Positions 16,833 to 62,017 of a stretch of 64,000 nt of DNA are shown piece after piece. Source of the stretch: Streptomyces sp. DG2A-72 (GTDB lineage Bacteria; Actinomycetota; Actinomycetes; Streptomycetales; Streptomycetaceae); NCBI RefSeq assembly GCF_030499575.1, contig NZ_JASTLC010000001.1:310001-374000 (forward strand), given 5' to 3'. A program made the translations under genes and the position numbers. The notes beneath the pieces were generated by a model, which ran no database searches, was not told the origin of the DNA, and saw only the letters and a list, made by a program, of their open reading frames with translations. The first letter of the stretch is position 1. Each line of letters begins with the position of its first letter.

Positions 16833-16859
16833 TGTCACAGGCCGCCCGCTTCTTCGGTC
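16833..16859 (+). promoter_or_regulatory. ECF41-type promoter for the first AhpD-like gene
   Basis: TGTCACA (16833-16839), 16 bp, GGTC (16856-16859), continuing GGTCAATGGTGTGTATCCGC. The ATG of the AhpD-like gene lies 37 bp downstream. The downstream paralogue at 31224 has the same promoter and an almost identical initiation region. Confidence 0.85.
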
Positions 16860-16895
16860 AATGGTGTGTATCCGCCACTCGGCAAGGAGATCAGC

Positions 16896-17369
16896 ATGGA
16901 ATCGCGTCTCAACTACTTCGGCCACCCCCTCGCGGGCAAGGTGCTCAAGCACATCAACTCGGCCGGCAAGGTGGTTTCGGACTCCACACTGCCCCTCGCG
17001 ACGCAGGAGCTGGTGAAGATCCGCGCCAGTCAGATCAACGGCTGTGGTTTCTGCACCGACATGCACACCAAGGACGCCATAGCGGCGGGAGAGACCGCGC
17101 AGCGCCTCCACCTGGTCGCGGCCTGGCGTGAGGCCAAGGTCTTCACCGACGCCGAGCGCGCCGCGCTGGAACTGGCGGAGCAGGGCACCCGCATCGCCGA
17201 CGCCGCCGGCGGTGTCACCGACGAGGCCTGGAGCAACGCGGCGAAGTACTTCGACGAGGATCAGCTCGTCGCCCTGCTGTCCCTCATCGCCGTCATCAAC
17301 GCGTACAACCGCATCAACGTCATCAACCAGCAGCCCGCAGGTGACTACCAGCCCGGCCAGTTCGGCTGA
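16896..17369 (+). CDS. Carboxymuconolactone decarboxylase / AhpD-like alkylhydroperoxidase (copy 1)
   Basis: 157 residues from the ATG at 16896, with AAGGAGA just upstream. The AhpD signature is present: INGCGFCTDMHTKDA, giving the peroxidatic CxxC (Cys50, Cys53) and His57. The overall sequence (MESRLNYFGHPLAGKVLKHI at the start, NQQPAGDYQPGQFG at the end) is that of the CMD/AhpD family that reduces peroxides or acts on small electrophiles. A very similar copy is at 31224-31697. Both stand behind an ECF41-type promoter, and carboxymuconolactone-decarboxylase genes are the classic partners of ECF41 sigma factors. Confidence 0.93.
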   Translation: MESRLNYFGHPLAGKVLKHINSAGKVVSDSTLPLATQELVKIRASQINGCGFCTDMHTKDAIAAGETAQRLHLVAAWREAKVFTDAERAALELAEQGTRIADAAGGVTDEAWSNAAKYFDEDQLVALLSLIAVINAYNRINVINQQPAGDYQPGQFG

Positions 17370-17412
17370 CCGGCACCTGGCATCCATCGGTTCCCCGTTC
17401 GCCTGCCGACGG

Positions 17413-17439
17413 TGTCACACACTGTGTGGCCGCCTGGTC
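17413..17439 (+). promoter_or_regulatory. ECF41-type promoter for the patatin/glycosyltransferase operon
   Basis: TGTCACA (17413-17419), 16 bp, GGTC (17436-17439). The first gene of the operon starts 49 bp downstream at 17488. Confidence 0.82.
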
Positions 17440-17487
17440 CTGGTTGGGAAAGCAATCCGTTCGGTGCCGTGGTGAGAAAGGTGCATC

Positions 17488-18447: not shown

Positions 18448-18458
18448 GGGGTCGGCCT

Positions 18459-19685
18459 GTGAGCACCATCGCTTTCCTCAACATCGCCATGCACGGGCGC
18501 GTCAACCCGACGCTGCCCATCGTGGCCGAGCTTGTCCGGCGCGGCCACTCCGTCACGTACCACACCTCACCCGCGTTCCGTGAAGAGATCGAGGCCGCCG
18601 GAGCCACGGTGTGCCTCTATCCCGGGGGCGACCAGCCGCTCCCCGATCCACCGACGCCGCTCACGCTGCTGGAGGGGCTTGCGGGCACCGCCGTCCGCTT
18701 GCTGCCCGCTGTCCTCTCCGATCTGCGCAGGGTCCGGCCCGACTTGATCGTCCACGACAGCGCCTGTCCGTGGGGCGCGGTCGCCGCCCGCGAACTCGGG
18801 GTGCCGGCGGCGTCGTCGTTCACCACGTTCGCCTTCAATCGGCAGGTGCCCAGCCCCACCGGCGGCTCGTGGGACATGCTGGCCGCGGCTGTGGCTCGGC
18901 CCCGCAGCCTCCAGGGGTACGTACGGTCCCGCTGGGCGCTGCACCGCCGCCACGACGCTCACGGGTTGCCGCTGCTCGACCTGGGGAACATCCGTCAGCC
19001 GCTCAATCTGGTCTACACCTCGCGGGCGTTCCAGCCTGCCGTCGAGGACTTCGACGAGTCCTACCGGTTCGTCGGCCCGAGCATTGGCGCCCGCCCGGCC
19101 GATCCCTCGTTCCCTGCCGAACGGCTCCAGGACCCGGTGCTGTACGCCTCGCTGGGCACCGTGTTCAATGCCGACCCGCAACTGCTGCGCACCTTCGCGA
19201 CCGCGCTGGCACCGCTCGGCGGCACTGTGATCGTCTCCACCGGGCAGACCGATCCCGACGCGCTGGGACCGTTGCCGGCCAACGTGCTCGCCCACCGCTT
19301 CGTGCCGCAGCCGGAGGTGCTGGCCCGCGCGGCGCTGTTCATCACCCATGGCGGGATGAACAGCGTCAACGAGGCCATGTACGCCGGGGTTCCGATGCTG
19401 GTGGTGCCGCAGGGCGCCGACCAGCCGATGGTGGCCCGTCGCGTCGTCGAACTCGGCGCAGGCCTGTCGATCCGTACCCAGGACGTCGCCAAGGCCTCCG
19501 TGCGTGTCCTCGCCCGGCGTCTGCTGCACGACCCCGGGTTCGGGGCAGCCGCGAGCACTCTGCAGGTGGCCCAGCACGAGGCGGGCGGGTATACACGGGC
19601 CGCCGACGAACTCGAACGGTACCTGCGAGCGACCGGCTCGGTCCGTGAGTCGGTTCCCGTCGACCCGTCAGGCGAGGCTGAGTGA
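18459..19685 (+). CDS. GT1-family (MGT-type) glycosyltransferase
   Basis: 408 residues from the GTG at 18459, with AGGGGG upstream and only 11 bp after the patatin stop. GT-B fold: the N-terminal domain starts TIAFLNIAMHGRVNPTLPIV (acceptor side), and the C-terminal nucleotide-sugar domain has YASLGTVFNADP, HRFVPQPEVLARAALFITHG and the donor-binding GGMNSVNEAMYAGVPM with PQGADQP. This is the macrolide/UDP-glycosyltransferase class, which glycosylates small lipophilic acceptors. Its stop overlaps the next gene's ATG (19682-19685), showing translational coupling. The acceptor is unknown; a lipid is plausible given the lipases in the operon. Confidence 0.92.
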   Translation: MSTIAFLNIAMHGRVNPTLPIVAELVRRGHSVTYHTSPAFREEIEAAGATVCLYPGGDQPLPDPPTPLTLLEGLAGTAVRLLPAVLSDLRRVRPDLIVHDSACPWGAVAARELGVPAASSFTTFAFNRQVPSPTGGSWDMLAAAVARPRSLQGYVRSRWALHRRHDAHGLPLLDLGNIRQPLNLVYTSRAFQPAVEDFDESYRFVGPSIGARPADPSFPAERLQDPVLYASLGTVFNADPQLLRTFATALAPLGGTVIVSTGQTDPDALGPLPANVLAHRFVPQPEVLARAALFITHGGMNSVNEAMYAGVPMLVVPQGADQPMVARRVVELGAGLSIRTQDVAKASVRVLARRLLHDPGFGAAASTLQVAQHEAGGYTRAADELERYLRATGSVRESVPVDPSGEAE

Positions 19686-21192: not shown

Positions 21193-21205
21193 CAAAAGCG
21201 GCAGG

Positions 21206-26183: not shown

Positions 26184-26627
26184 TCAGTCCACAGGCCGCG
26201 GGGCGCGCAGGTGGGCCCGCTGTGCCAGTTCCTCCTCGGAGACCAGCTCGAGCATGGGCTTGCCCGGCGCGCACATCATTGTCACGGTGAACCGGGTTGG
26301 CGCATCGGCCAGTGCGTTGCCGTCCTGGTAATGGATGACGTCACCACCCGGCTCCCAGAACGTCCCGCCGGCCTCGACCACGCGCTCGGGCTCGCCCTCG
26401 AGTTCGAAGCGGACCGCGCCCTCGATGACGTACCCGAAGGCCGGCCCCGAGTGGCGGTGCGGAGGCGTTCCCAGGTCTCCGGGCTCCCACTCGACGAAGA
26501 TGGTCATCGCCGAGGCACCCTCGGGGATGACGAGCGGCCCGGCGTCCTGCAGCATCTTCGCCGCCGTCTTCCACCCCTGCGACCGTGACTGCTCGCTCGT
26601 CCTGCTCACTGAGTCCGTGTCCGACAC
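26184..26627 (-). CDS. Cupin-domain protein (copy 1)
   Basis: 147 residues from the GTG at 26627, which has GGAGG upstream. Single conserved beta-barrel with the metal-binding cupin motifs: GTPPHRHSGPAFGYVIEGAV (motif 1: His, His, Glu) and a second-motif region around GGDVIHYQDGNALADAP. Cupins of this type bind a metal and may act as small dioxygenases or sensors. A copy of almost identical sequence, including the 5' leader, is at 38092-38535. Both copies are preceded by an ECF41-type promoter. Confidence 0.9.
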   Translation of the reverse strand: MSDTDSVSRTSEQSRSQGWKTAAKMLQDAGPLVIPEGASAMTIFVEWEPGDLGTPPHRHSGPAFGYVIEGAVRFELEGEPERVVEAGGTFWEPGGDVIHYQDGNALADAPTRFTVTMMCAPGKPMLELVSEEELAQRAHLRAPRPVD

Positions 26628-26648
26628 TGTGCTGCACCTCCATAGGTC
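26184..26648. repeat. Dispersed duplicate, copy 1 (cupin gene plus leader; copy 2 at 38092-38556)
   Basis: 465 bp starting at the cupin stop codon and ending in CATAGGTC just upstream of its ribosome-binding site; the second copy, 38092-38556, has exactly the same length and orientation. The coding parts differ at only a few positions. Similarity stops abruptly on the promoter side after the ribosome-binding site, yet each copy has its own ECF41-type promoter beyond that point. Confidence 0.9.
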
Positions 26649-26714: not shown

Positions 26715-26741
26715 GACCGGGCACACGGTGCATCTGTGACA
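26715..26741 (-). promoter_or_regulatory. ECF41-type promoter for cupin copy 1
   Basis: Minus strand: TGTCACA (26741-26735), 16 bp, GGTC (26718-26715), continuing ATCAC. The cupin GTG start is 88 bp downstream. Confidence 0.85.
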
Positions 26742-31160: not shown

Positions 31161-31187
31161 TGTCACATTTTGCCGGGCCGACCGGTC
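31161..31187 (+). promoter_or_regulatory. ECF41-type promoter for the second AhpD-like gene
   Basis: TGTCACA (31161-31167), 16 bp, GGTC (31184-31187), continuing AATAGTGCGTATCCGC. The -10 and initiation region is nearly the same as at 16856. The start codon is 37 bp downstream, the same distance as in copy 1. Confidence 0.88.
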
Positions 31188-31223: not shown

Positions 31224-31697
31224 ATGGATCCTCGTCTCAACTACTTCGGCAATTCCCTCGCGGCCAAGGTGCTGAAGCACATCAACTCCGCGAGCAAAGT
31301 GGTGTCGGACTCGGGGCTGCCGGCCGCCACTCAGGAGCTGGTGAAGATCCGTGCCAGCCAGATCAACGGCTGCGGCTTCTGCACCGACATGCACACCAAG
31401 GACGCCACCGCGGCCGGTGAGACATCGGTGCGCCTCAACCTGATCGCCGCATGGCGGGAAGCCACGGTCTTCACCGAGGCGGAGCGCGCCGCGCTGGAAC
31501 TCACCGAGCAGGGCACCCGGATCGCCGACGCGGCCGGTGGGGTCACCGACGAGTCCTGGGCGAACGCCGCCAAGCACTACGACGAGGACCAGCTCGTTGC
31601 GCTGATCTCCCTCATCGCCGTCATCAACTCCTACAACCGCATCAACATCATCACCCAGCAGCCCGCCGGCAGCTACCAGCCCGGCCAGTTCGGCTGA
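31224..31697 (+). CDS. Carboxymuconolactone decarboxylase / AhpD-like alkylhydroperoxidase (copy 2)
   Basis: 157 residues, close paralogue of the protein encoded at 16896 (same length, most residues identical). CxxC and His of the AhpD site are present in INGCGFCTDMHTKDA. The ATG at 31224 is preceded by TAGGAGAT. The promoter, leader and spacing are conserved with copy 1, so the whole transcription unit was duplicated. Ends before a strong hairpin, so monocistronic. Confidence 0.93.
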   Translation: MDPRLNYFGNSLAAKVLKHINSASKVVSDSGLPAATQELVKIRASQINGCGFCTDMHTKDATAAGETSVRLNLIAAWREATVFTEAERAALELTEQGTRIADAAGGVTDESWANAAKHYDEDQLVALISLIAVINSYNRINIITQQPAGSYQPGQFG

Positions 31698-32281: not shown

Positions 32282-32308
32282 TGTCACGCCGGAGACTGCT
32301 GCTCGGTC
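32282..32308 (+). promoter_or_regulatory. ECF41-type promoter for the hydrolase/MFS pair
   Basis: TGTCACG (32282-32288), 16 bp, GGTC (32305-32308). A second TGTCACA starts at 32314 but lacks a matching -10. The hydrolase start is 169 bp downstream. Confidence 0.75.
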
Positions 32309-38635: not shown

Positions 38636-38662
38636 GACCGAGTGCCCCGTGGATCCGTGACA
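38636..38662 (-). promoter_or_regulatory. ECF41-type promoter for cupin copy 2
   Basis: Minus strand: TGTCACG (38662-38656), 16 bp, GGTC (38639-38636), continuing ATC. The cupin GTG is 101 bp downstream. Confidence 0.8.
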
Positions 38663-38673: not shown

Positions 38674-38700
38674 TGTCACAACAACGGCACGAGCCCTGTC
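38674..38700 (+). promoter_or_regulatory. ECF41-type promoter (TGTC class) for nmrA-like gene 1
   Basis: TGTCACA (38674-38680), 16 bp, TGTC (38697-38700). The gene start is 97 bp downstream. The -35 elements of this promoter and of the divergent cupin promoter are 11 bp apart, back to back. Confidence 0.75.
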
Positions 38701-41043: not shown

Positions 41044-41318
41044 CCTACGTGACCGGCGACGTCGTCAGTTACTCCGACGGCGGCGGAGTGCGCGGCGCGT
41101 CGAAGATTCCGGTCATCGGACATCCGCACGTCTCCAAGTACCTCGTGGCCTTCGCTCCCCGGTTCTGGCCCCAGATGGACATTCGGTGGGTCGAGGCCAA
41201 TGGACGACCGGCTGTTCTTGTCTCTGATGAATCCGGCCAAGCTGTTGCCCTACGTGACGTCCTTGAGCGACTGAACGCCCAGCGCGTCAGTCGGGGAACC
41301 TGCGCGGCCCTGGAGTGA
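41040..41318 (+). pseudogene. ECF41-type sigma factor, C-terminal (SnoaL-like) fragment
   Basis: In a frame different from aceE the sequence reads YVTGDVVSYSDGGGVRGASK, IPVIGHPHVSKYLVAFAPRF, DIRWVEANGRPAVLVSDESG. This is the C-terminal regulatory extension of SigJ/ECF41 sigma factors, including the DGGG(K) signature (here DGGGV). No sigma region 2 or 4 is present. It ends 11 bp before an ECF41-type promoter. Compare the whole-length homologue at 55784, which has VTGRARVAKMATYQKL at the same position. Confidence 0.75.
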
Positions 41319-41329: not shown

Positions 41330-41356
41330 TGTCACGAGAGAGGTGACTTGCCGGTC
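41330..41356 (+). promoter_or_regulatory. ECF41-type promoter for the Ohr-like gene
   Basis: TGTCACG (41330-41336), 16 bp, GGTC (41353-41356), continuing AACTAGC. A small leader ORF starts 50 bp and the Ohr gene 226 bp downstream. Confidence 0.8.
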
Positions 41357-42897: not shown

Positions 42898-42924
42898 GAC
42901 CAAGGAACCTGTGACGGTGTGACA
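42898..42924 (-). promoter_or_regulatory. ECF41-type promoter for the ferredoxin gene
   Basis: Minus strand: TGTCACA (42924-42918), 16 bp, GGTC (42901-42898), continuing ATACCGG. The ATG is 73 bp downstream. Confidence 0.85.
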
Positions 42925-43617
42925 ACCGGGCCGAACGGTCTGCCCGCGGGCAAGACGGCGGAGGCAGGCGACGGACGCCGTGTGCCCTACGCCAAGCTCC
43001 TGGCCACCGGCTCGTCCCCGCGTCGGCTGTCCGTTCCCGGCGCGGATCTCGGCAAGGTTCTGTACCCGCGACGCGTGAGAGACAGTGAACGGCTCAAGGA
43101 CCCCTTCACCGAGGGAGCCAGGAATCGTCGTGATCGGCGGCGGATGGATCGGCCTCGAGACCGCCGAGGCCGCCCGGATGGCCGGAGCGGAAGTGACGGT
43201 GCTCGAGCACTCGGAGCTGCCGCTGACGAACGTCCTCGGGCGTAAGGATGTGCGCCCCCGTACGCAGGTCGAGCGCATCGCCGGAAGCCGCGGCCGCGTG
43301 GACGGCGTAGTGCTCGCCGATGGCAGCCACCTGGCCGCGGACGCCGTGGTCGTGGGCATCACGCCTACTGTCCAACTCGCGCAGGAAGCGGGCTTGGAGG
43401 TGCGCAGCGGCATTGTCACCGACGAGCATCTGCAGACCTCGGTGGCCGGCATCTACGCCGCGGGCGATGTCGCCAACGCCTGCCATCCGCGGCAAACCGC
43501 GTTCTTGCGGCGATGAACGTGAATGTGTGGGACGTCATCGACTCGATCCGTTCCTTGATCGAATCCGGGTCCGATGTCGACGACGCCCTCCTCGCCGATC
43601 CCGGGGCCCCTGGACAG
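42925..43617 (+). pseudogene. FAD-dependent ferredoxin reductase, multiply disrupted
   Basis: Pieces in several frames: GRRVPYAKLLATGSSPRRLS (FAD region), then IVVIGGGWIGLETAEAARMA (NAD(P)-binding motif), an internal gap after VLEHSELPL, then GVVLADGSHLAADAVVVGIT and VAGIYAAGDVANACHPRQT (second FAD motif), and finally MNVNVWDVIDSIRSLIESGS, the typical C-terminal signature of this family. The N-terminus is missing, and frameshifts or deletions occur near 43120, 43225 and 43505. It was the natural partner of the divergent ferredoxin. Confidence 0.8.
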
Positions 43618-43754: not shown

Positions 43755-43781
43755 TGTCACAACGCCCTTGGTCATCCGGTC
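43755..43781 (+). promoter_or_regulatory. ECF41-type promoter for the flavoprotein gene
   Basis: TGTCACA (43755-43761), 16 bp, GGTC (43778-43781), continuing GTAGTG. The GTG start is 35 bp downstream, a good distance for initiation. Confidence 0.85.
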
Positions 43782-45597: not shown

Positions 45598-45624
45598 TGT
45601 CACAAATACAGTCACCATCCTGTC
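45598..45624 (+). promoter_or_regulatory. ECF41-type promoter (TGTC class) for nmrA-like gene 2
   Basis: TGTCACA (45598-45604), 16 bp, TGTC (45621-45624). The gene start is 95 bp downstream, almost the same distance as for nmrA copy 1, which also has TGTC as -10. Confidence 0.75.
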
Positions 45625-45718: not shown

Positions 45719-46465
45719 ATGAAGGTCGTAGTCATCGGCGGTACCGGCCTTATCGGCTCGCAGCTGGTCGAAAAGCTCAACGAGCACGGCCACGAAGCAG
45801 TGCCGGCCGCCCCCAACACCGGCGTCAACACGCTGACGGGTGAGGGCCTGGCCGAGGTTCTGCAGGGCGCTTCGGTCGTGGTCGACGTGTCGAACTCCCC
45901 CTCGTTCGAGGACGAGCCCGTCATGGAGTTCTTCCGCACTTCCACGACCAACCTCCTGAAGGCGGAGGCCGAGGCCGGCGTGACGCACCACGTGGCGCTG
46001 TCCGTGGTCGGCACCGAGCGCCTCCAGGAGAGCGGGTACTTCCGCGCCAAGCAGGTCCAGGAAGAGCTGATCAAGGCGTCCGGCATCCCCTATTCCATCG
46101 TCCACGCCACCCAGTTCTTCGAGTTCATGAAGGGGATCGCGGCCATGTCGACCGAGGGCGACACCGTGCGTCTGGCCCCCGTCAAGATCCAGCCCATCTA
46201 CTCCGGCGACGTGGCCGCCGCCGTGGGCCGCACGGCCGTCGGCACGCCCCTCAACGGCCTGGTGGAGGTTGCCGGCCCCGACACGTTCCAGCTGGACGAG
46301 CTCATCCGCAAGGCGCTCGCCGCCAAGCAGGACCCCCGCACGGTCGTGACGGACCCGCACGCCCCGTACTCCGGTGCCGAGGTGAAGGAGACCACCCTCC
46401 TTCCCGGCCCGGACGCGCGCATCGCTGAGACCCGTTTCGCCGACTGGCTCGCGCAGCAGAAGTGA
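45719..46465 (+). CDS. NmrA-like NAD(P)-binding protein (epimerase/dehydratase fold), copy 2
   Basis: 248 residues from the ATG at 45719 (GAGAGGA upstream). VVVIGGTGLIGSQLVEKLNE (Rossmann), VVDVSNSPSFED, THHVALSVVGTERLQESGYF, and YSIVHATQFFEFMKG, colinear with the protein at 38797. It differs at many positions, so the duplication is old. Followed by a strong hairpin, so probably monocistronic. Confidence 0.92.
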   Translation: MKVVVIGGTGLIGSQLVEKLNEHGHEAVPAAPNTGVNTLTGEGLAEVLQGASVVVDVSNSPSFEDEPVMEFFRTSTTNLLKAEAEAGVTHHVALSVVGTERLQESGYFRAKQVQEELIKASGIPYSIVHATQFFEFMKGIAAMSTEGDTVRLAPVKIQPIYSGDVAAAVGRTAVGTPLNGLVEVAGPDTFQLDELIRKALAAKQDPRTVVTDPHAPYSGAEVKETTLLPGPDARIAETRFADWLAQQK

Positions 46466-46620: not shown

Positions 46621-47220
46621 ATGCTCACAAACCGCAACCAGAGCACTGTTCCCAGCACCGACCCGTATGAAGCACTCACCGGTTCGTACACCATTGACCC
46701 GGTCCACAGCATGATCGGTTTCTCCGTCCGGCACGCCATGATCTCCAATGTGCGTGGGAAGTTCGACTCCTTCGAAGGCCTTCTCAAGCTCGACGGGTCC
46801 CAGCCCTCCCGGTCCGAGGCCTATGTGAGCGTCCAGACCGAAAGCCTGGACACGGGCATTCGGGAGCGGGACACGCACCTTACGGGCCCTGACTTCTTCA
46901 ACTCTTCGATGTTCCCCCTGATGACGTTCCGCTCCACCGGAATCGTCGATGCGGGTAGTGACGAGTTCCGGCTGAGCGGAAACCTCAAGATCAAGGATGT
47001 CGAACTGCCCATCACCATCGATCTCGAATTCGGCGGAGCCAGCCGCGACGCCTACGGGCACCACCGGGTCGGTTTCGAGGGCACAGCCACCCTGCAGCGC
47101 TCCGACTGGGGACTCACCTGGAACACGGCGCTGGAAACGGGGGGCGTCCTGGTCAGCGACAAGGTGAAGCTGATCCTCGACATCTCGGCGGTACAGACGG
47201 ACCAGACGGCTACTGCCTGA
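46621..47220 (+). CDS. YceI-family protein
   Basis: 199 residues from the ATG at 46621 (GAAGGAAAG upstream). YceI/lipocalin-like barrel: GSYTIDPVHSMIGFSVRHAM near the start, GKFDSFEGLLKLDG, TDSLDTG-like ESLDTGIRERDTHLTG, and EFGGASRDAYGHHRVGFEGT. YceI proteins bind isoprenoids or quinones, often in stress or respiration contexts. No signal peptide. Its own promoter is not obvious; the upstream gene ends in a terminator. Confidence 0.9.
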   Translation: MLTNRNQSTVPSTDPYEALTGSYTIDPVHSMIGFSVRHAMISNVRGKFDSFEGLLKLDGSQPSRSEAYVSVQTESLDTGIRERDTHLTGPDFFNSSMFPLMTFRSTGIVDAGSDEFRLSGNLKIKDVELPITIDLEFGGASRDAYGHHRVGFEGTATLQRSDWGLTWNTALETGGVLVSDKVKLILDISAVQTDQTATA

Positions 47221-48404: not shown

Positions 48405-48431
48405 TGTCACACCATCCTGCTCCGTCCGGTC
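48405..48431 (+). promoter_or_regulatory. ECF41-type promoter for the isochorismatase-like gene
   Basis: TGTCACA (48405-48411), 16 bp, GGTC (48428-48431), continuing AACCTTG. The start codon lies 69 bp downstream. Confidence 0.85.
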
Positions 48432-48499: not shown

Positions 48500-49184
48500 A
48501 TGGATCTGAATCGCGAGCTTCCCGACGCCGAGATCGTGGCCACGCCCACCCCGAGCCCGAACCTGCTGACCCCGTACAACTCGGTGTTCGTGTTCGTCGA
48601 CCACCAGCCGCAGATGTTCTTCGGTGTCGGCAGCGGCGACCGGACGGCGATCGTCAACGCCACCGTCGGACTGGCCAAGACCGCCAAGGCATTCAACGTC
48701 CCGGTCATCCTGAGCACCGTTGCGGCAGAAACCTTCTCCGGTCCCCTTCTTCCTCAGCTCGCCGAGGTCTTCCCCAAGCAGCCGGTCATCGACCGCACCA
48801 CGATGAATCCCTGGGAGGACAGCGCCTTCATCGAGGCGATCAAGGCCACCGGCCGCAAGAAGATCGTACTGTCCGGCCTGTGGACCGAGGTGTGCGTCGC
48901 ATTGCCCGCTCTCTCCGCGCTTGCCCAGGGCTACGAGGTGTACGTCGATCGCCGACGCCTGCGGGGGTCTGACCCCCGAGGCCCACGCGCACGCCATCCA
49001 GCGCATGGCCACGGCCGGCGCCCACACCGTCGACTGGCTCCCGGTCCTGCTGGAGCTGCAGCGTGACTGGGCCCGCGGCGAGACCTACGACGCCGTCCTG
49101 GACATCGCCAAGGCACACGACGGCGGCTACGGCCTCGGTGTCGTCTACGCAAAGAAGTTCATCGGCGACAACGCCGCCGGCTGA
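48500..49184 (+). pseudogene. Isochorismatase-family hydrolase (YcaC-like) with single-base frameshift
   Basis: From the ATG at 48500 the protein reads NSVFVFVDHQPQMFFGVGSG (catalytic Asp region), VPVILSTVAAE, DSAFIEAIKATGRKKIVLSG (catalytic Lys) and LWTEVCVALPALSALAQGYE (catalytic Cys in TEVCV). At 48941-48950 one extra G (GTCGATCGCC instead of GTCATCGCC) shifts the frame; the next frame continues ADACGGLTPEAHAHAIQRMA to the TGA at 49182. Restored, it would be about 227 residues, the normal length. All catalytic residues lie before the shift. A recent mutation or a sequencing error. Confidence 0.88.
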
Positions 49185-49701: not shown

Positions 49702-50241
49702 ATGATCGACCCCACCGCGCCCTCCTCGGTCTTCCGGCACAGTGCCCAGGAGTTCCTACTGACCTTCGTCCTGCTGTTCGGCGTGCTCGCGGCGCGGGGC
49801 ATGTGGGGCAGTGGGGCAGTGTCACGCGCGCTCCTCCGGTGGCCTACGCCGCCCTGCAGCCGCCCCGACTGGTCGGCCACGGGGGCTCTTCCTGGCGGAG
49901 ACGGCGTCGATGGGCTTCCCCGTGCTCCTCGTGGGGCTGTTCTGTCGGTGCACTGGCTGACACGCTTCATCCCCTGTCTGGTGGGCTTCCTCATCTGCCT
50001 GTCCATCGCCCTGCTGGGCACGAGCACCGGCGGCAGCCTCAACCCGGCCCACCACTTCGGCCCAGCTCTGGGCGCCGGACAGTCCGGCTTCCTGTGGGTC
50101 TGTCTTCTGGCCCTCATGCTCGGGGCCGTCCTGGCACCGGTCGTACGGGATCTGCTTCTCGGACACCGCCGGGTGCTCACCCACCGGCTGCACGGCGCCC
50201 ACGCCGACCGGTCGCCGGTGCACGACCACCCGACCCCGTAA
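49702..50241 (+). pseudogene. Aquaporin/MIP-family channel remnant
   Basis: Start ATG 49702: EFLLTFVLLFGVLAARGMWG (TM1), then the reading becomes non-hydrophobic, then FIPCLVGFLICLSIALLGTS, TGGSLNPAHHFGPAL with the second NPA motif of aquaporins, and WVCLLALMLGAVLAPVVRDL (last TM). The first NPA half is missing or out of frame (a neighbouring frame reads FLAETASMGFPVLLVGLF). Not functional. Confidence 0.7.
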
Positions 50242-51060
50242 CCGCGGGGCCCATCGTGGTAGCGCGGGCCCTTCGCACCGTTTCCAGCGCTCTGCCGGTG
50301 CCAGGCGGGTCGTTGTCGCAGATCACCACGACCGCCGGGGCATTGGGGAAGGCTGCCACCAGTTGGCGCAGCAGGGTGAGGAAGTCGGCGGCACGGTGTC
50401 GGCCGAGCCGGTGGCGGAAAGTGCCGGTGGTGGTCTCCGGCGCTCCCAGCACGGTGATCTGGCGGTTCTTGCCCGGAGTGGGGATTTGCGGCCGCCGGCC
50501 GGGCGGCGTCGAGCTGGAGCGGACGTGTGGCAGCAGGTGCAGATGCGTCTCGTCGTCGGCCCACACCACCGCTCCGGTCGGCAGCAGCCGCACCCGTCCG
50601 GAGATCGCGGCCACCACCGCGGGCCGGGCCGAATCACCGCGGGCCATCAGCTTGGGCCGCCGCCAGACGGCCACCTGTCGTACCCGGCGGTACAGCGTGC
50701 ACCGGCTCAGGTGCGACCAGCCCAGGTACCGATACAGCCTGGGTACGGTCCACGGCTCGGGCTGTTTGAGCAGCGCGGTGCTCCGCGCGCGCAGTCGGTT
50801 GCCGCCCATCCTCGGCCGCCCACAGCGGGGGTGATCGGCAAGGCCGGCCACTCCGCAGGTGTGGAAGCGGCCGATCCAGTGCCGCACGGTGACCGGGACA
50901 CGCTCCAGCAGCATGGCGATCTGCGCGGGCGGCAGACCGTGCAGGGACAGCAGCACCATCACCGCGCGCACAACCCTCGCCCCGGCCGCGCAGCAGGCCG
51001 CGTAGTCGCCGACACTCGGAGGCCGACGCGTGGGCGAAAATGGTGGGCGGGCGCATACTG
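50241..51060 (-). pseudogene. IS630-family transposase, C-terminally truncated
   Basis: Helix-turn-helix N-terminal domain (MVLLSLHGLPPAQIAMLLER, VTVRHWIGRFHTCGVAGLAD) and the first catalytic motif VVWADDETHLHLLPHVR, then TTTGTFRHRLGRHRAADFLT and the second catalytic Asp in AVVVICDND. The remainder with the final Glu is lost; the frame runs on to 50177 in unrelated sequence. No terminal repeats seen. Confidence 0.8.
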
Positions 51061-52552: not shown

Positions 52553-53503
52553 TCAGTTGGTGCCGAGTGCGGTGCGCAGAGTGTGAATGGCCTGCTGCAT
52601 CGCGGCAGTGGCGGCCTGCGTGGAGCGGACGGCGTTCAGCATCAGGAAGTCGTGCAGGACGCCGTTGTAGCGAATGCTGGTGGTGGGAACGCCGGCCTGT
52701 GTCAGCTTGCGGGCGTACGCCTCACCCTCGTCCCGGAGCACGTCGTTCTCGTCGACGATGACGAGCGCGGGCGGCAGCCCTTCCAGGTCCCCGAGGCCGG
52801 CCCGCAGCGGCGAAGCGGTGATCTCGGCCCGCTGTGCGGGGTCGGTGGTGTAGCAGTCCCAGAACCAGGCCATGCCCTTCGCGGTCAGGTGGGGGCCGTC
52901 CGCGAACTCCCGGTAGCTGTCGGTGTCCTGGGCGGCATCCGTGACCGGGTAGTACAGCGACTGGTGCACGAAGGACACATCGCCACGCTGCTTGGCCATG
53001 ATGGTCAGCGCCGCGGTCATGTTGCCGCCGACGGAGTCACCGGCCACAGCCATGCGAGAGGCGTCCAGGCCTTCCTGGGCACCGTTCGCCGTGAGCCACC
53101 GCGCCGTCGCGTACGCCTGCTCGATGGCAACCGGGTACTTGGCCTCAGGGGAATGGTCGTACTCGACGAACACCACGGCAGCGTCCGCGCCGACGGCCAG
53201 CTCTCGCACCAGGCGATCATGAGTACCGGCGTTGCCGAGGACCCAGCCTCCGCCGTGCACATAGAGGACGACCGGCAGGGGGCCCTGAGCATCGACGGGC
53301 TTGACGATGCGGACCCGGACATCGCCGACCTCGGCGGGCACCGTGATCCACTTGTCCTGCACGTCGGGCTTCTCGATGGGCGCCGCCTGCAGCTCGTCGA
53401 GAACCTTCCGAGCACCCTCGGGACCAAGCTCGTACAAGAAAGGCGGGTTGGCCGTCGCCTCCGCGATCTTCTGCCCGGCAGGCTCAAGAACGGGGCTATT
53501 CAC
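52553..53503 (-). CDS. Alpha/beta hydrolase of the hormone-sensitive-lipase (fold-3) family
   Basis: 316 residues from the GTG at 53503 (AGGAG upstream). Oxyanion motif VVLYVHGGGWVLGNAG, nucleophile Ser in RMAVAGDSVGGNMTAAL, acid in LVIVDENDVLRDEG and His in VLHDFLMLNA. Cytoplasmic arylesterase/lipase type. Upstream, on the same strand, is a lone TGTCACA (53555-53549) without a convincing -10, so membership of the ECF41-type set is uncertain. Confidence 0.92.
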   Translation of the reverse strand: MNSPVLEPAGQKIAEATANPPFLYELGPEGARKVLDELQAAPIEKPDVQDKWITVPAEVGDVRVRIVKPVDAQGPLPVVLYVHGGGWVLGNAGTHDRLVRELAVGADAAVVFVEYDHSPEAKYPVAIEQAYATARWLTANGAQEGLDASRMAVAGDSVGGNMTAALTIMAKQRGDVSFVHQSLYYPVTDAAQDTDSYREFADGPHLTAKGMAWFWDCYTTDPAQRAEITASPLRAGLGDLEGLPPALVIVDENDVLRDEGEAYARKLTQAGVPTTSIRYNGVLHDFLMLNAVRSTQAATAAMQQAIHTLRTALGTN

Positions 53504-53622
53504 GATTGCTCTCCTATGCTGGCAGGGGCTGTGTTGTGCTTTCACCCTTGTGACAGGCCATCAGCCGAATATGCGACATAAGCTGATGAAGAGTTTTTTG
53601 TTCACCCGCCGATGTGCCACCG

Positions 53623-53889
53623 TCAGTGCAGGCTGCTGATCTCCTTGTACTCCTGCTCGGTGGGTTTGGGGATCTGGGTTCCTTCCCCGTGGAAGCCGCG
53701 GCTGAGCCTGGCTCTCAGCCGCTGTGCTCTGGTGGGCCCGCCCTCCAGGCTCTGCTCGCTTCCCGCCGGGACGGCGGTGAGAGGCGTGGACTGCTCGTGC
53801 GCGGTGAGGATGTGCAGTCGTTCCTGGCTGGCCACGACGTAGACGACGACCGGCACAACGAAGAGGCCGATGCGGACGCAATTGTTCAC
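53623..53889 (-). CDS. Small membrane-anchored protein
   Basis: 88 residues from the GTG at 53889 (GGAG upstream). One N-terminal membrane segment (CVRIGLFVVPVVVYVVASQ) and a polar, basic C-terminal domain (QRLRARLSRGFHGEGTQIPK with PTEQEYKEISSLH). I do not recognise the family. Divergent from the sigma gene at 54296, with back-to-back ECF41-type promoters between them, so it is probably expressed together with that sigma factor. ECF41 systems usually lack an anti-sigma factor, which makes a small membrane protein in this position interesting. Confidence 0.6.
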   Translation of the reverse strand: MNNCVRIGLFVVPVVVYVVASQERLHILTAHEQSTPLTAVPAGSEQSLEGGPTRAQRLRARLSRGFHGEGTQIPKPTEQEYKEISSLH

Positions 53890-54049
53890 GGCTGTACTCC
53901 AAGGACAGGGTTCATGAGCTGCTGTCCTCCTTATGGCCAGCCGGCCCATGAAGAAAAGACTGTTCGGATTCCCTTTCCGGTACAGGCCATTCATTTCACC
54001 GGCAATCAGTCTCGTGCCGTATGGGACGCATCACGGTCCTCGCAAGTGA

Positions 54050-54076
54050 GACCGAGTGGCCGGCGTATGTGTGACA
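54050..54076 (-). promoter_or_regulatory. ECF41-type promoter for the small membrane protein
   Basis: Minus strand: TGTCACA (54076-54070), 16 bp, GGTC (54053-54050), continuing TCACTTG. The GTG start is 161 bp downstream. Confidence 0.82.
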
Positions 54077-54112: not shown

Positions 54113-54139
54113 TGTCACAAGATCTACGCCTGTCCGGTC
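54113..54139 (+). promoter_or_regulatory. ECF41-type promoter for sigma gene 1
   Basis: TGTCACA (54113-54119), 16 bp, GGTC (54136-54139). The sigma start codon lies 157 bp downstream. Indicates autoregulation. Confidence 0.85.
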
Positions 54140-54295: not shown

Positions 54296-55219
54296 ATGGA
54301 CCATGCCGATGACGCGGTGCCGATCGCGGAGCTACTCGATGAGCGGCGGCATCTGCTGGATGTCGCCTACTGGATGCTGGGCAGCAGCAGTGCGGCAGAG
54401 AGCGTCATTGACGAGACCTACCGGCGGTGGTACGAGCTGTCCGATCCGGCGCGGAAGGAGATCACGGCGCCGCGTTCCTGGCTGGCGAAAGTCGCCGGCA
54501 GTATCTGCCTGGCCCGCCTCGCGCTGCCCGAGCGGGACAAGGACCGTGCGGGCCAGGGGCTGAACGGTCAGGCCGGGTCGGAGCGGGACGGTCTGCTGCA
54601 GGAGGAGATCAGCTCGGTACTGCTGGAGGCACTGGATTCGCTGTCTCCGGCCGAGCGGGCGGCGTTCGTCCTCAACGACGTCTTCGGGATGGCGCCGGGT
54701 GCGGTCGCCGACATCGTCCGGCAGACCGAGCCGGAATGCGCCGAGCTGGCCGACCGTGCCCGCCGCAGTCTCAGGGACCGGCGTGCGCGGCCCACGCCGC
54801 CCCAGCAGCACGACGGGGTGGCCCACGCGGTATGCCAGGCCTGCGCGATGGAGGACGAGACACTCCTGGCGTCCCTGCTCGCACCCGACGTCACGGCCTT
54901 CTTCGACGGCGGCGGCAAGGTCAGGGCCCTGGTCAAACCGGTGCACGGCAACACCCAGGTCGCCCACAGCCTGCTGACCCTGCTGACCCGGCAGCCGCGC
55001 ACCGCCCTGCACACCCACTCCGTCAACGGACGGACGGGCCTGGTGGTGCGCTACGACCACCAGGTCGCCGCCGTCATCAGCCTCGACATCGCCGGCCCCC
55101 ACGTCGTACAGGTCTGGATCATCCTCAACCCCGACAAACTCCGCACCTGGAACCAACCCGGCGATCCTCTCGACCCGCCGACGACACCCAACAACTCGGG
55201 CAGAGTGCCCGGGGAATGA
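54296..55219 (+). CDS. ECF41-type sigma factor 1 (sigma-70 region 2/4 plus SnoaL-like C-terminal domain)
   Basis: 307 residues from the ATG at 54296 (GAGGGAGGA upstream). Region 2 spans about 13-75 (LLDVAYWMLGSSSAAESVID, TYRRWYELSD), region 4 about 105-160 (LEALDSLSPAERAAFVLNDV, GMAPGAVADIVRQTEPECAE). A SnoaL/NTF2-like extension follows with the ECF41 signatures FFDGGGKVRALVKPVHG (DGGGK at 204-208) and ILNPDKL (278-282). The WLPEP motif that ECF41 proteins carry between regions 2 and 4 is absent; the linker is short. The C-terminal domain is known in this group to control sigma activity without an anti-sigma factor. Its 3' end is repeated in inverted orientation at 56991-57107. Confidence 0.88.
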   Translation: MDHADDAVPIAELLDERRHLLDVAYWMLGSSSAAESVIDETYRRWYELSDPARKEITAPRSWLAKVAGSICLARLALPERDKDRAGQGLNGQAGSERDGLLQEEISSVLLEALDSLSPAERAAFVLNDVFGMAPGAVADIVRQTEPECAELADRARRSLRDRRARPTPPQQHDGVAHAVCQACAMEDETLLASLLAPDVTAFFDGGGKVRALVKPVHGNTQVAHSLLTLLTRQPRTALHTHSVNGRTGLVVRYDHQVAAVISLDIAGPHVVQVWIILNPDKLRTWNQPGDPLDPPTTPNNSGRVPGE

Positions 55220-55554: not shown

Positions 55555-55581
55555 TGTCACAGAGCGGGGACCCATCCGGTC
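55555..55581 (+). promoter_or_regulatory. ECF41-type promoter for sigma gene 2
   Basis: TGTCACA (55555-55561), 16 bp, GGTC (55578-55581), continuing AATGAAG. The sigma start codon is 203 bp downstream. Confidence 0.85.
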
Positions 55582-55783: not shown

Positions 55784-56701
55784 ATGCATCCCGAAACGCC
55801 CCCCACGGAGAGCACCTTGGACGAGGCCGTTGCTGTTTTCGTGGAGCTCCGTCCACGCCTCTTCGGCATCGCATACCGCATGCTGGGAAGCGCGGTCGAG
55901 GCGGAAGACGTGGTTCAGGAAGTCTGGTTGCGCTGGCAGAAGACCGACCGCTCGGTAGTGATCAGCCCCGTGGCATTTCTGTCCAGCACCACTACCCGGC
56001 TGGCCATCAACGTGGCGCAGTCCGCGCGTGTGCGCCGCGAGACCTACATCGGCCCTTGGTTGCCCGAGCCCGTTGACACGAGCAACGATCCCGAGGTGGG
56101 TGCCCAGCGGGCGGAAGCCCTGGAATTTGCTTTGCTTCTCGTACTGGAGAAGCTGAATCCCATGGAGCGGGCCGCATATGTGTTGAGGGAGGCGTTCGAC
56201 TACGGCTACCCCGAAATTGCGGAAATTCTTCAGCTCAGCATCGTCAACGTACGCAAGGTCGTGAGCCGGGCTCGCAAACATCTCGCGGCCGACCAGCGGG
56301 AGACCGTGGACACGGTGGAGCACCGACGGCTCCTCGATGCCTTCGTCTCGGCAGCGCAGAGGGGAGATGTCGCCTCGCTGGAGGCTCTTCTCACCCCCGA
56401 TACCGTCAGTCTGTCCGACGGCAACGGTATGCGGGGCTGCTCTCGTATACCCGTGACTGGCCGTGCACGTGTGGCCAAGATGGCGACCTATCAGAAGCTC
56501 TGGCGGGATGCGGAGCCCAGGTTGGTCGACGCCAACGGCTGTGCGAGCGTGATGCTCTACCAAGATGGCCAACCCATCGCCTTCATGACGATGACCGCCT
56601 CGAAGGAAGGTATCCACAAGTTGATGTGGGTCTTCAACCCGAGCAAGATCGCCGCGTTCATCGACTCAGGCTCTCGCCACACCACGGCACCCGGCGCCTG
56701 A
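55784..56701 (+). CDS. ECF41-type sigma factor 2 (SigJ-like)
   Basis: 305 residues from the ATG at 55784 (CAGGAT upstream). Region 2: RPRLFGIAYRMLGSAVEAED, VVQEVWLRWQ (about 22-55). The linker has the ECF41 motif GPWLPEPVDT (WLPEP at 92-96). Region 4: LLVLEKLNPMERAAYVLREA, YGYPEIAEILQLSIVNVRKV (about 117-165). SnoaL-like domain from about 180 on, but the usual DGGGK is DGNGM (212-216) and NPDKL is NPSKI (285-289). So it keeps the linker motif but has degenerate C-terminal motifs, the reverse of sigma 1. In ECF41 proteins changes in the C-terminal motifs alter activity. Confidence 0.92.
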   Translation: MHPETPPTESTLDEAVAVFVELRPRLFGIAYRMLGSAVEAEDVVQEVWLRWQKTDRSVVISPVAFLSSTTTRLAINVAQSARVRRETYIGPWLPEPVDTSNDPEVGAQRAEALEFALLLVLEKLNPMERAAYVLREAFDYGYPEIAEILQLSIVNVRKVVSRARKHLAADQRETVDTVEHRRLLDAFVSAAQRGDVASLEALLTPDTVSLSDGNGMRGCSRIPVTGRARVAKMATYQKLWRDAEPRLVDANGCASVMLYQDGQPIAFMTMTASKEGIHKLMWVFNPSKIAAFIDSGSRHTTAPGA

Positions 56702-56975: not shown

Positions 56976-57119
56976 TCAGGGATGTGTGAGGCCGGGTTGG
57001 TTCCAGGTGCGGAGTTTGTCGGGGTTGAGGGTGATCCAGACCTGTACGACGTGAGGGCCGGCGATGTCGAGGCTGATGACGGCGACCTGGTGGTCGTAGC
57101 GCACCACTCGGCCGGGCCG
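56976..57119 (-). pseudogene. 3' end of an ECF41-type sigma gene, inverted copy of sigma gene 1
   Basis: Minus-strand frame VVRYDHQVAVISLDIAGPHV, VQVWITLNPDKLRTWNQPG, ending in TGA at 56976-56978. At the nucleotide level 56991-57107 is almost the reverse complement of 55043-55162 within sigma gene 1 (one codon missing, few substitutions). The rest of the gene is absent. The two copies flank sigma gene 2 as an inverted repeat. Confidence 0.85.
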
Positions 57120-57789
57120 TGAAGCGGGTACGGGTCAAGTCCTTCGGGGACATGCTCTGCGGCGGTGAGTGGCCGTGGCCAGGTTCCGGAGCCGGCCCGC
57201 ACAACTGCCTTGCGGCACACGGCTGGACGATGTGACGCAGCCACACAGGCCGACAGGTGGCAGTACGCGAAGAGGACAGGCTCGGGGCAAGCCTTGGCTC
57301 ACCGGCCGAAGCCTGACGTCCAGCTGCCCGGCGTGGTGCCGCCTCTCGAAGCGCTCTGCCGGGCAGAGGCGCCCGACAACACAGGAACTCCCGCACGGTG
57401 ACCTCATTTTCTGTCGACGCGTCAGCTAGACCGGACAGGCGCAGACGTTGCGACATCCCTCTGCGGGCAGGCACCCGCACCGGGCTGCGTGAGACCGCTG
57501 ACCAGCCGTGGGTGCCGCCCGCAGCAGAGGAAAAGACAGGAAGCACCGGACAAGAGGGCGTCTGACCATGTGTTATGCCACTCGCGCGGGCGGGTCGTCC
57601 GTCCGCGCGGCTCAGCATGTCCGGTTTGCCCGGCACATTCGTGACCGGGCCAAACCGAGCCGCGCTCGTTGTTGACCGGCATGGATGACTGTCTCACACT
57701 TTGCTGTGTTGACCTGACGAACGGTGCAACCATGTGTGCGGTCGTGGCCCAATATTGCAACGGTGTTTGTTCTGAGTGCTGGGCAGCTT
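57120..57789. other. No supported gene
   Basis: About 670 bp without a convincing coding frame. A TGTCTCACACTTTG-like sequence at 57690 resembles the ECF41-type -35 only loosely and has no proper -10. Confidence 0.4.
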
Positions 57790-59994: not shown

Positions 59995-60054
59995 CGCGGT
60001 CAGCGTTCCTCGGAGCCATCGCCCTGGCCTGGGTGGTGCCGTTCTTCGTGCTCA

Positions 60055-60345
60055 TCACGCTGCCCCTTCGCCTGTGCTCAGTCCGACGTCGATGACGCCG
60101 AAGATCCGGTCGTAGGTGTCCAGCGACCGTTCCTCGACCTCCGTGACGTCCACCGGCGCTGGTTTCGTGCCGGCGGTCGCCTTGCGGGCGGCAGCTGCCG
60201 CGTGATCGGGGTCGGTGATGGTCTGGTGGCGGGCCCAGCTGCGGGCATGGCGGACGACCTCGACGCCGTCGCAGGTGTCCAGGACGATTCAGCCGTCGCC
60301 GACACTGCAGGCCCAGGTGCTGATGAAGCCGTCGCTCAGCATGAG
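60055..60345 (-). pseudogene. Transposase C-terminal remnant, possibly IstA (IS21)
   Basis: Minus-strand frame with one internal TGA: LMLSDGFISTWACSVGDG, stop, IVLDTCDGVEVVRHARSWAR, HQTITDPDHAAAAARKATAG, VEERSLDTYDRIFGVIDVGL. The phrase VVRHxRSWxRxQTITDPxHA recalls the end of IS21 IstA proteins. Family assignment is from memory only. Confidence 0.35.
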
Positions 60346-60602
60346 TCTCGATCTTGCGGTGGAGCCGGTCGAGCGTGTTCCACCGTTTGATCGACGGCAC
60401 GTCCTCGCTCACCCGAGTCTCCGTGGACCTGTACGTTTCCGCTCCCGTAGCCACGGCATTCCCGCCGACCAGAAGACCCGGTCAGCTCCCTGCCGGGCTG
60501 GGAGCCGATGGCGCCGATAGAACCCGGTCGTCCGGTTGGCGGCTCCGAGCGCCGGTCCATGCCCCATCGCTGCCCGTCAGCGGCTGGCGCCTTCCGTCAT
60601 GC
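60346..60602. other. No supported gene
   Basis: Short gap before the stop codon of the NDH-2 gene; nothing recognisable. Confidence 0.35.
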
Positions 60603-61958
60603 TCATGCCGCCGTGTGGTCGCTCGCCCGACTCTCGCCGGCGCGCTGCGGATCACCGCTTGTGACAAACGCGTCCCGGGGGTGCTGCACAGAGGCCAGGG
60701 AGACGAGATCCCTCCCGAACAGGGCCGCGGTGAGCCAGACGGCAAGGACGCGGACTTTCCGTTCCCAGGTGGGCACGGCCAGCACGTGATAGCCCCGGTG
60801 CATCAGCCAGGCGGGAAGCCCCTTGATGACAAGCCTCTTGTACTGGAAGATGCCCCGCCCCAGTCCCAGCGTCGCCACCACTCCCAGGCTGCTGTGACGG
60901 TAGCTTCGGATGCTCCCGTCGTGCAGGCTGGCTGCGATGTTCTTTGCAAGGTGCTTGCCTTGCCGCACGGCGTGCTGAGCGTTCGGCACCGTGTGCGCCC
61001 CCGGCACGGACGAGGCCAGATCGGGAACAGCCGCATCGTCGCCGGCCGCCCACACATCCGGCACAGGCTCGCTGTCGGTGCCCACGCGAAGATCGGGGCG
61101 GACCACGACCAGACCACGCTCGTCGACGGGCAGATCCGTGTGATTGTGCACCACGGGGTTCGAGGCGTTGCCTGCGGTCCAGACGATCAGCGACGAATCG
61201 AACTCCTCTCCACTGGAGAGCACGACGTGCCCGTCTTCGACGGAGACGAGCTGCGTGTTCAGGTGGACATGAGCACCTCGGCGTTCCAGTGAGCGCACAA
61301 CCCAGGCACCGGGCTCGTCTCCCACCTCGGGCAGGATTCGGCCTCGGACCTCAATCAGGTGGAAGGACAAGTCGTCGATGCTCAGTTCCGGATAGAACTT
61401 GAGCATCGCAGTCGCCAGCGACAGCAGTTCACCGAAGCCCTCGACGCCGGAGAAGCCACCGCCCACGAAGGTGACGGTGAGTAGCTTCTGGCGCTCGGGA
61501 CCAGGCGGTAGTGACGCTGCCTGATCGAACGCGGTCATCAGCCGGTCGCGGATGGCTACCGCCTCCTCCACGTGCTTCAGGCCAATTGCCTGCTGCACGA
61601 GCCCGGGTATGGGGAAGGTACGGGTCACGGCGCCGGCAGTGACCACCAGGATGTCGTAACGGAGTTCGTAGTCGGCTCCGCTGACGGGCCGGACGGTGAC
61701 CGTCCGGTCCGCGTTACGGATCTCGGTCACGTTCCCCGCGATCAGCCGGGTGCTGTGCAGGTGCCGTCGCAACGACACGGCAGCGTGACGTGCCTCGATC
61801 GATCCAGCCGTTACCTCCGGCAGGAAGGGTTGGTAGGTCATGTACGGACGTGGGTCGACAACCGTGACCCTTGCCTCGCCCGTGCGCAGCTTCTTTTCAA
61901 GGCCCCATGCCGTGTAGAAGCCCGCGTATCCGCCGCCGACGATCAGAATCTCACGCAT
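60603..61958 (-). CDS. ndh: Type II NADH:quinone oxidoreductase (NDH-2)
   Basis: 451 residues from the ATG at 61958. First dinucleotide motif ILIVGGGYAGFYTAWGLEKK (FAD), ILVVTAGAVTRTFPIPGL, second motif VTFVGGGFSGVEGFGELLSL (NADH), and the FAD/quinone region VPDVWAAGDDAAVPDL, with AQHAVRQGKHLAKNIAA. The C-terminal part has an amphipathic/hydrophobic region (GLPAWLMHRGYHVLAVPTWE) for peripheral membrane attachment. Passes electrons from NADH to quinone without proton pumping. Its promoter is of the ECF41 type (TGTC class) with the start 33 bp downstream of the -10. Confidence 0.93.
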   Translation of the reverse strand: MREILIVGGGYAGFYTAWGLEKKLRTGEARVTVVDPRPYMTYQPFLPEVTAGSIEARHAAVSLRRHLHSTRLIAGNVTEIRNADRTVTVRPVSGADYELRYDILVVTAGAVTRTFPIPGLVQQAIGLKHVEEAVAIRDRLMTAFDQAASLPPGPERQKLLTVTFVGGGFSGVEGFGELLSLATAMLKFYPELSIDDLSFHLIEVRGRILPEVGDEPGAWVVRSLERRGAHVHLNTQLVSVEDGHVVLSSGEEFDSSLIVWTAGNASNPVVHNHTDLPVDERGLVVVRPDLRVGTDSEPVPDVWAAGDDAAVPDLASSVPGAHTVPNAQHAVRQGKHLAKNIAASLHDGSIRSYRHSSLGVVATLGLGRGIFQYKRLVIKGLPAWLMHRGYHVLAVPTWERKVRVLAVWLTAALFGRDLVSLASVQHPRDAFVTSGDPQRAGESRASDHTAA

Positions 61959-61990
61959 GATTCCCTCTGTTGGTTGTCCGACACCAGATA

Positions 61991-62017
61991 GACAAGGCCG
62001 GGCCGGACGGTGTGACA
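61991..62017 (-). promoter_or_regulatory. ECF41-type promoter (TGTC class) for NDH-2
   Basis: Minus strand: TGTCACA (62017-62011), 16 bp, TGTC (61994-61991), continuing TATCTGG. Short leader of about 33 bp to the ATG. Confidence 0.8.

Follow-up and report, generated by a model that had tools for sequence, protein, structure and literature searches.

A decentralised set of ECF41-like promoter sites in Streptomyces sp. DG2A-72: a probable local regulon, with a degenerate sigma-like protein as its candidate regulator

How large a set of genes can an ECF41-type sigma system come to serve, and with the help of which other proteins? The question is raised by a stretch of 64,000 nucleotides of Streptomyces sp. 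DG2A-72 (NZ_JASTLC010000001.1, positions 310,001-374,000, from a genome of 10,575,821 bases; "the window" below denotes this whole stretch), in which promoter-like sites of the form TGTCAC(A/G)-N16-(G/T)GTC are found 16 times within about 45 kb, 11 on the plus and 5 on the minus strand. The available excerpt of a study of ECF41, a widespread group of sigma factors (PMC3426412), describes, in general, one neighbouring target and no second protein, and an in-silico search reported there found no conserved regulon members beyond the COE genes (carboxymuconolactone decarboxylase, oxidoreductase, epimerase-like) and the ECF41 genes themselves. A preliminary description of the window had listed the 16 sites, all of which were recovered by a pattern search at the same coordinates and on the same strands, and had proposed that an ECF41-type sigma system drives a large island of many promoters in one place; this proposal is supported by the rarity and orientation of the sites, by the retention of promoters with their genes and by the co-occurrence of sigma genes. 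Judged from sequence, the stretch is very probably a real decentralised regulon of about 15 transcription units with intact genes and ECF41-type promoters of their own, most likely transcribed by a sigma factor here called family A.

The pattern is rare: dinucleotide shuffles yield on average 0.29 matches per window, and at most 2, and the genome holds 28, of which 16 lie inside this 45 kb (2 for a reversed-pattern control), so that the motif is not equally frequent elsewhere. The exact 16-bp spacer pointed out earlier is the only one enriched among lengths of 10 to 23; it accounts for 16 matches in the window, with one each for 11 and 15 and none for the others. Chance or base composition as the origin of the sites is ruled out by the shuffles, the genome counts, the spacer scan and the reversed controls. 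A scoring matrix, built from the 16 window sites and so biased toward them, gives these sites 21.4-27.6; among the 12 matches outside the window, 11 score 4.0-20.2 and one 26.8. The latter (C1:6027470-6027496) is the sole strong site found outside the island; the ATG 38 bp beyond it opens a gene for what, by eye, appears to be a metallo-beta-lactamase-fold hydrolase, a possible unlinked member of the regulon.

The experimentally mapped ECF41 promoter, as given in the accessible part of PMC3426412, consists of a TGTCACA -35 element, a spacer of 16 ± 1 and a CGTC -10 element. The likeness to ECF41 promoters claimed earlier stands for the -35 element (its seventh base is A in 13 of the 16 window sites and G in 3) and for the spacer, and not for the -10 element, which is GGTC or TGTC in all 16. 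A CGTC-type pattern has 10 matches scattered over the genome and none in the window; one of them sits just upstream of another sigma-like gene (C1:4549803-4550603).

The attachment of the sites to genes was followed in 26 stretches of 22 genomes, the window included, with genes called by codon usage and a site cut-off score of at least 17. Although called genes cover 74% of this sequence, 321 of the 330 sites lie outside them; a gene on the same strand starts within 350 bp downstream of 296 sites, and 136 sites have a start to their other side. Of the 34 sites with no called gene that near, at least one, the isochorismatase site of the window, is a miss of the gene caller. The downstream families recur from stretch to stretch: NmrA-like proteins (50 genes in 21 stretches), sigma-like proteins (33 in 22), FrdA-like flavoproteins (22 in 18), cupins (20 in 17), AhpD (14 in 13), Ohr (14 in 14), NDH-2 (13 in 13), cytochrome b (11 in 11) and FdxA ferredoxin (9 in 9), together with ferredoxin reductase, methyltransferase, alpha/beta hydrolases, OsmC, DUF5134, patatin and others. 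Seen from the genes, a site is carried by 13/14 NDH-2, 14/15 Ohr, 20/21 cupin, 22/25 FrdA-like and 44/52 NmrA genes, and the distance from site to start is 33-35 bp in 12 of 13 cases for NDH-2 and 37-40 bp in 12 of 14 for AhpD. Taken together, the families have a direct site at 263 of 423 genes and an operon link to one at a further 38; for the other genes of these stretches the count is 27 of 585. This contrast is inflated by the definition of the families from genes downstream of sites; the one-off families (label x) are pooled with the 585, and the four genes labelled SIG carry sites by construction. Since the families had been defined by sites, a split-half test was run: summed over 20 random splits, a site is carried by 1940 of 2643 genes (73%) whose training homologues mostly have one and by 172 of 2343 (7%) whose training homologues never do, the values for the window alone being 11/16 and 1/12. 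A motif-blind alignment of all upstream regions of eight families, site-less ones included, shows TGTCACA and GGTC conserved and the rest variable.

As to the sigma factor involved, the preliminary description had counted two sigma genes of the window as like members of the regulon; they are not equivalent, one of them (54296-55219, family C) being degenerate. The other, the family A gene g50 (55784-56701, plus strand, 305 residues), is the probable driver: its product matches Pfam sigma-70 regions r2 (45.2 bits) and r4_2 (48.1 bits) above the cut-offs, and the WLPEP linker motif is present in it and in 120/120 of its closest homologues (best 120 matches). A C-terminal extension exists and aligns partly to SigJ; in the same closest homologues NPDKL occurs in 0/120, with mostly NPSKI or SPSKI in its place, and a Pfam scan gave no SnoaL match in the family A protein. 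Family A is called ECF41-like here, another SnoaL-bearing ECF group being also possible. A second family A gene, 80% identical, lies at G000:C1:374946-375848, 0.95 kb to the right of the window; a weaker site, TCTCACA, precedes it by about 700 bp. Elsewhere in the same genome, contig C3:141304-150757 groups four further ECF41-like genes in 10 kb; the linker of one reads WMPEP, and the other three have no W.PE motif.

The island recurs in other genomes. Strict sites (TGTCACA-N16-GGTC) were counted in 150 Streptomyces genomes; most have few and 22 have 6-25, often tightly clustered (17/17 in 53 kb in G140, 17/20 in 65 kb in G118, 19/21 in 87 kb in G111, 15/16 in 49 kb in G061), and two additional genomes behave likewise (G349, 20/20 in two clusters; G366, 10/10 on two contigs). 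Among the matches listed, no family C was found in three of the 22 site-rich genomes: G075, with four strict matches in a tandem repeat and three scattered; G149, with three near a gene of a further sigma family (family B), three that are copies of one repeat and five scattered; and G105, with a true cluster of seven. Since some of the 22 thus owe their number to repeats or scattered matches, about 20 of the 150 genomes carry a multi-site island. Gene order is reshuffled between islands, and the same families still carry sites. The median number of strict sites is 12 in genomes with family C (at least 24), 2 in those with an A/B-type match only (13) and 1 in those with neither (113); all C-bearing genomes listed (at least 24, four partial matches in G045, G063, G067 and G132 included) also have an A/B-type match, defined as a match to g50 at E<=1e-60, which takes in a third related clade. 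Small loci in G019 and G149, each with AhpD, family B, NmrA and three sites, resemble the published COE arrangement.

A separate scan for family C, with one genome per species, found 152 relatives, from which 75 loci of Streptomyces, Streptacidiphilus and Embleya were retained, a sample that overlaps the former; the 75 named loci contain 411 strict sites in 1.45 Mb (3 for the backward control), with at least one site in 74/75 and at least three in 63/75. A secondary peak at spacer 11 in these loci (55 matches) was set aside, being read as spacers that often end in TGTCC directly before GGTC. A wider class sample comprised 246 genomes, 22 of the same genus; among the 224 others no large island was found, two-site clusters being possible there, and only G232 had at least six strict matches, eight in all, which form no large island because each lies on a different contig.

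Four things are directly seen: that the sites exist, that they cluster, that they stay attached to genes from one species to another, and that they co-occur with these sigma families. On this basis each promoter would consist of a TGTCACA -35 element, a 16-bp spacer, a C(G/T)GTC -10 element and an A/T-rich stretch just downstream; in the column frequencies of the 75 loci the -10 element indeed extends to C(G/T)GTC, followed by A/T and, about 7 bases on, by a preferred G, as expected for a transcription start at a predicted position. Transcription would most likely depend on family A and its 80% paralogue to the right of the window, so that, if the regulon reading holds, the window island is run by the two copies of A. 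In other islands family B, which has no promoter of this kind of its own, probably shares the role of driver from a position upstream in the circuit; direct sites before 12/23 A and 17/27 C genes, and before none of 23 B genes, would place A and C within a feedback loop and B above it. The output would comprise redox and detoxification enzymes and electron-transfer proteins, with feedback on the system's own A and C genes. Because the targets include peroxide and hydroperoxide reductases, AhpD, NAD(P)H-dependent reductases, ferredoxin, ferredoxin reductase, cytochrome b and NDH-2, they suggest a response to hydroperoxides, oxidants, quinones or other electrophiles with rerouted electron flow; one island also encodes a flavohaemoglobin-like protein.

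Besides the circularity in the definition of the gene families, several observations weigh against the regulon so described. The -10 element of the 75 loci is GGTC in 83% and TGTC in 17%, with a pattern that allowed those two only, in place of the published CGTC; direct sites are few in some families (YceI 3/12, one hydrolase family 8/23, aceE 2/16 with 10 more operon-linked) and precede 0/23 family B genes, 2 of which are operon-linked; the window has no intact B gene and retains a fragment only. The family A protein falls just below the curated NCBIfam cut-offs for SigX4 (320.6 of 323.25 bits) and SigJ (256.9 of 271). In G105 the site cluster is accompanied solely by a B-like match that is diverged and partial (52%), with no C among the matches listed, and G045 has both C and A with only 2 sites in the fetched stretch; because of these two genomes sigma content is not an exact predictor of regulon size. 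Small loci in G019 and G149, each with AhpD, family B, NmrA and three sites, resemble the published COE arrangement.

Could the sites be something other than promoters? Short conserved blocks at a fixed spacing could bind a dimeric repressor or activator; the two blocks, however, are not inverted copies of each other, the sites are biased in orientation toward their genes (the 296 against 136 given above), they keep short distances from the NDH-2 and AhpD starts, and their -35 element and spacer are identical to those of the mapped ECF41 promoter in the part of PMC3426412 at hand, all of which makes operators quite improbable. A mobile repeat scattered across the island, for which duplications and genes of transposase-like appearance might speak, is scarcely credible, given that 410 sites show hardly any conservation 5' of the -35 element and not much over the first two thirds of the spacer, and that the homology of the two AhpD copies begins at the -10 element.

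Within the window, a gene had been said to lie 33-230 bp from essentially each site; outside this range is the plus-strand site 32282..32308, which is about 280-314 bp from its alpha/beta hydrolase gene (about 32586-33521), itself followed by an MFS transporter gene (33550-35070). The other plus-strand sites precede the two AhpD/CMD genes, each at 37 bp (16833..16859 before 16896-17369; 31161..31187 before 31224-31697), a patatin-like gene (17413..17439; about 17488/17584-18447) followed by a glycosyltransferase gene (18459-19685), an NmrA-like gene (38674..38700; about 38869-39537) with a truncated aceE-like gene (39650-41227), an Ohr-family gene (41330..41356; about 41582-42079), a gene for a FrdA/aspartate-oxidase-like flavoprotein (43755..43781; 43816-45546), a second NmrA-like gene (45598..45624; 45719-46465) and then a YceI gene (46621-47220), an isochorismatase-like gene (48405..48431; 48500-49066) and the family C and A genes themselves (54113..54139 and 55555..55581). 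On the minus strand, sites stand before two cupin genes (26715..26741 before copy 1, 26184-about 26627; 38636..38662 before copy 2, 38092-about 38535), a FdxA-type ferredoxin gene (42898..42924; 42436-42825), a cytochrome b gene remnant (54050..54076; 53626-53895) and, at 33 bp, an NDH-2-like gene (61991..62017; 60603-61958). Two weaker minus-strand sites were also noted, a TGTCGCA variant (57429..57455, score 21.3) upstream of a family C remnant (56979-57119) and one of score 15.7 (53552..53578) about 50 bp before an alpha/beta hydrolase gene (52553-53503).

If the regulon reading is right, the window island is a partly decayed version of those found elsewhere, because family B, ferredoxin reductase, OsmC, cytochrome b and the second C copy are present as remnants. 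What had been taken for a small membrane protein (53623-53889) is the cytochrome b remnant, which corresponds to the C-terminal part of the cytochrome b of other islands (residues 364-489 of 491, 48%); the family B remnant (41049..41261, plus strand, beside the truncated aceE gene) covers residues 201-270 of 298 at 80%, and the ferredoxin reductase remnants (42970..43611, plus strand) come from a gene that is a full-length frame in other islands. The two cupin copies (26194-26648 and 38102-38556) are 98.9% identical over 455 bp and differ in their promoter spacers, a pattern as after gene conversion or a recent gene-limited duplication. Genes of transposase- or reverse-transcriptase-like appearance by eye (8349-10261, 36612-36965, 50177-50962) lie in and beside the island; no PADLOC match that would suggest a defence island was found among six non-sigma window proteins examined, and no match to Pfam families of the polyketide synthase or nonribosomal peptide synthetase type among 40 proteins scanned, which cover part of the island genes.

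The second sigma-like protein raises a question of its own. The family C gene g49 (54296..55219, plus strand) encodes an NTF2/SnoaL-like domain with DGGGK and NPDKL; its product has no Pfam match to sigma-70 region 2 and only 20.9 bits for r4_2 (cut-off 25.7), and it looks like no ordinary sigma factor and rather like a degenerate derivative of ECF41, although some C homologues retain Pfam sigma-70 regions and in several C proteins sigma-4 is shortened or replaced. In its best 120 matches W(L/I)PEP occurs in 0/120 and NPDKL in 115/120, the reverse of family A; both sets were chosen by similarity, to g49 and g50 respectively, and represent those families only. Both motifs are present in the seven ECF41 proteins that are the closest sisters of C in the tree (3 WLPEP and 4 WIPEP; 6 NPDKL and 1 NPEKL). 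The sigma-like matches collected, 199 in all, reduced to 103 distinct sequences, and proteins below 230 residues were left out, among them a 219-residue A-like frame of G141 and a partial C of G063. Since A keeps WLPEP only and C keeps NPDKL only, the two halves of the ECF41 lock appear to lie on two proteins. The distribution of constraint is inverted as well: identity in the linker is 0.25 in C and 0.87 in A and B, and in the C-terminal domain 0.67 and 0.71-0.73, as computed with A rows longer than 290 residues (17), truncated A copies in the rest group and 25 of 31 C rows; median dN/dS of sigma-2 is 0.42 in C, 0.11 in A and 0.22 in B, and of the C-terminal domain 0.26, 0.28 and 0.29, from pairs of 72-97% identity that for C number only 13 and are not independent. 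Shortened A copies of 239-243 residues in G118, G020 and G111 miss most of the C-terminal domain, and a sigma-like group D (244-245 residues, about 50% identity to A; in five islands, of G070, G118, G020, G111 and G141) ends soon after region 4, without WLPEP and most of that domain. A structure model of C (mean pLDDT 76.5) comprises sigma-2, a disordered linker, sigma-4 and an NTF2-like domain; its fold matches include sigma factors in anti-sigma complexes and the sigma-like domain of PhyR, with NTF2-like folds for residues 165-289; among the matches listed no SnoaL-type regulator besides SigJ and SigG1 is seen, a negative that carries no weight.

These features are what would be expected if C were a regulator in trans derived from an ECF41 sigma factor, which would extend the regulon reading by supplying the NPDKL half of the lock to A, and perhaps to B; the NTF2/SnoaL-like domain of C would keep A (perhaps B) in an inactive or a competent state pending the binding of a small ligand. 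Such a role, to which we grant not quite an even chance, is favoured by the reciprocal motif loss, by the sister proteins that keep both motifs, by the relaxed linker and sigma-2 next to a retained C-terminal domain, by the A copies and group D proteins without most of that domain, by the predicted fold matches, by a contact between NPDKL and the linker reported for ECF41 in the available part of PMC7730460, and by the position of the genes, A and C being at most 600 bp apart, in tandem or convergent, in 14 of the 16 stretches from which both were extracted. Against it stand the restriction of the homologue samples to the best 120 of each family, the retention in B of DGGG (16/23) and an NPxKL-like end, by which B may still be locked in cis, the sites of G105, G019 and G149 without C among the matches listed, and the fact that C might simply be a sigma factor of altered specificity. 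That A and C are two working sigma factors which jointly read the same promoters, as implied in the preliminary description, is unlikely: both do match the NCBIfam SigJ and SigX4 profiles (C far below the cut-offs), the modelled fold of C is sigma-like and some of its homologues have Pfam sigma-70 regions; yet g49 lacks a Pfam region 2 and has region 4 under the cut-off, WLPEP is missing from all 120 closest C homologues, and sigma-4 and the constraint on sigma-2 have suffered as described. With C as regulator, we tentatively propose that a one-component ECF41 sigma was split, A having kept the polymerase- and DNA-binding part and the linker half, and C the ligand-domain half with loss of sigma function, so that a dead sigma would regulate a live one in trans, alongside growth from one-to-three targets to a reshuffling regulon of 10-30 promoters.

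Partial precedents exist. The ECF41 factors of Bacillus licheniformis and Rhodobacter sphaeroides, as far as the accessible text of PMC3426412 goes, share with the island the -35 element, the spacer, the C-terminal extension, WLPEP (in family A here) and the kinds of target named at the outset; the island differs in having 16 sites and not the single COE target, GGTC/TGTC and not CGTC, and an additional degenerate sigma-like protein, and would as such go against the general one-target view. In the titles and abstract openings listed by searches of open-access papers no description of such an island, or of a degenerate ECF41 partner, was found. Mycobacterium tuberculosis SigJ (PDB 5xe7) is the best solved-structure sequence match for both A (E 1.6e-39) and C (E 1.9e-20). 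Sigma and regulatory domain are joined there in one protein, a difference from A and C. We know of no island of this kind for SigJ. In the PhyR-NepR-EcfG system a degenerate sigma-like domain likewise takes part in regulation, PhyR being among the fold matches of the C model; PhyR has a receiver domain, in place of which C has an NTF2-like one, and acts on NepR. RpoE10 of Azospirillum brasilense, according to a cited title, reportedly controls motility and lateral flagella, beyond a single neighbouring target; to our knowledge it has no island of repeated promoters. This title suggests that a single target is perhaps not universal for ECF41, the group to which RpoE10 is assigned in the available part of PMC8999054. 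SigG1-RsfG of Streptomyces tsukubaensis, in the portion of PMC7730460 at hand, similarly combines a SnoaL_2-bearing sigma factor with an adjacent separate regulator; it belongs to another group (ECF56), RsfG is described there as a sigma antagonist, and the likeness to C is one of description only.

If the regulon reading is right, these Streptomyces represent a lineage in which an ECF41 system has expanded to 10-30 promoters within a single neighbourhood and differs in size within one genus, and the size series would offer natural material on how a sigma factor gains a regulon. The question of what ECF41 senses becomes testable, because a target set of hydroperoxide reductases, AhpD, NAD(P)H-linked reductases, cytochrome b and ferredoxin narrows the signals to be considered; and family C may be an example of a sigma factor that came to regulate its own paralogue.

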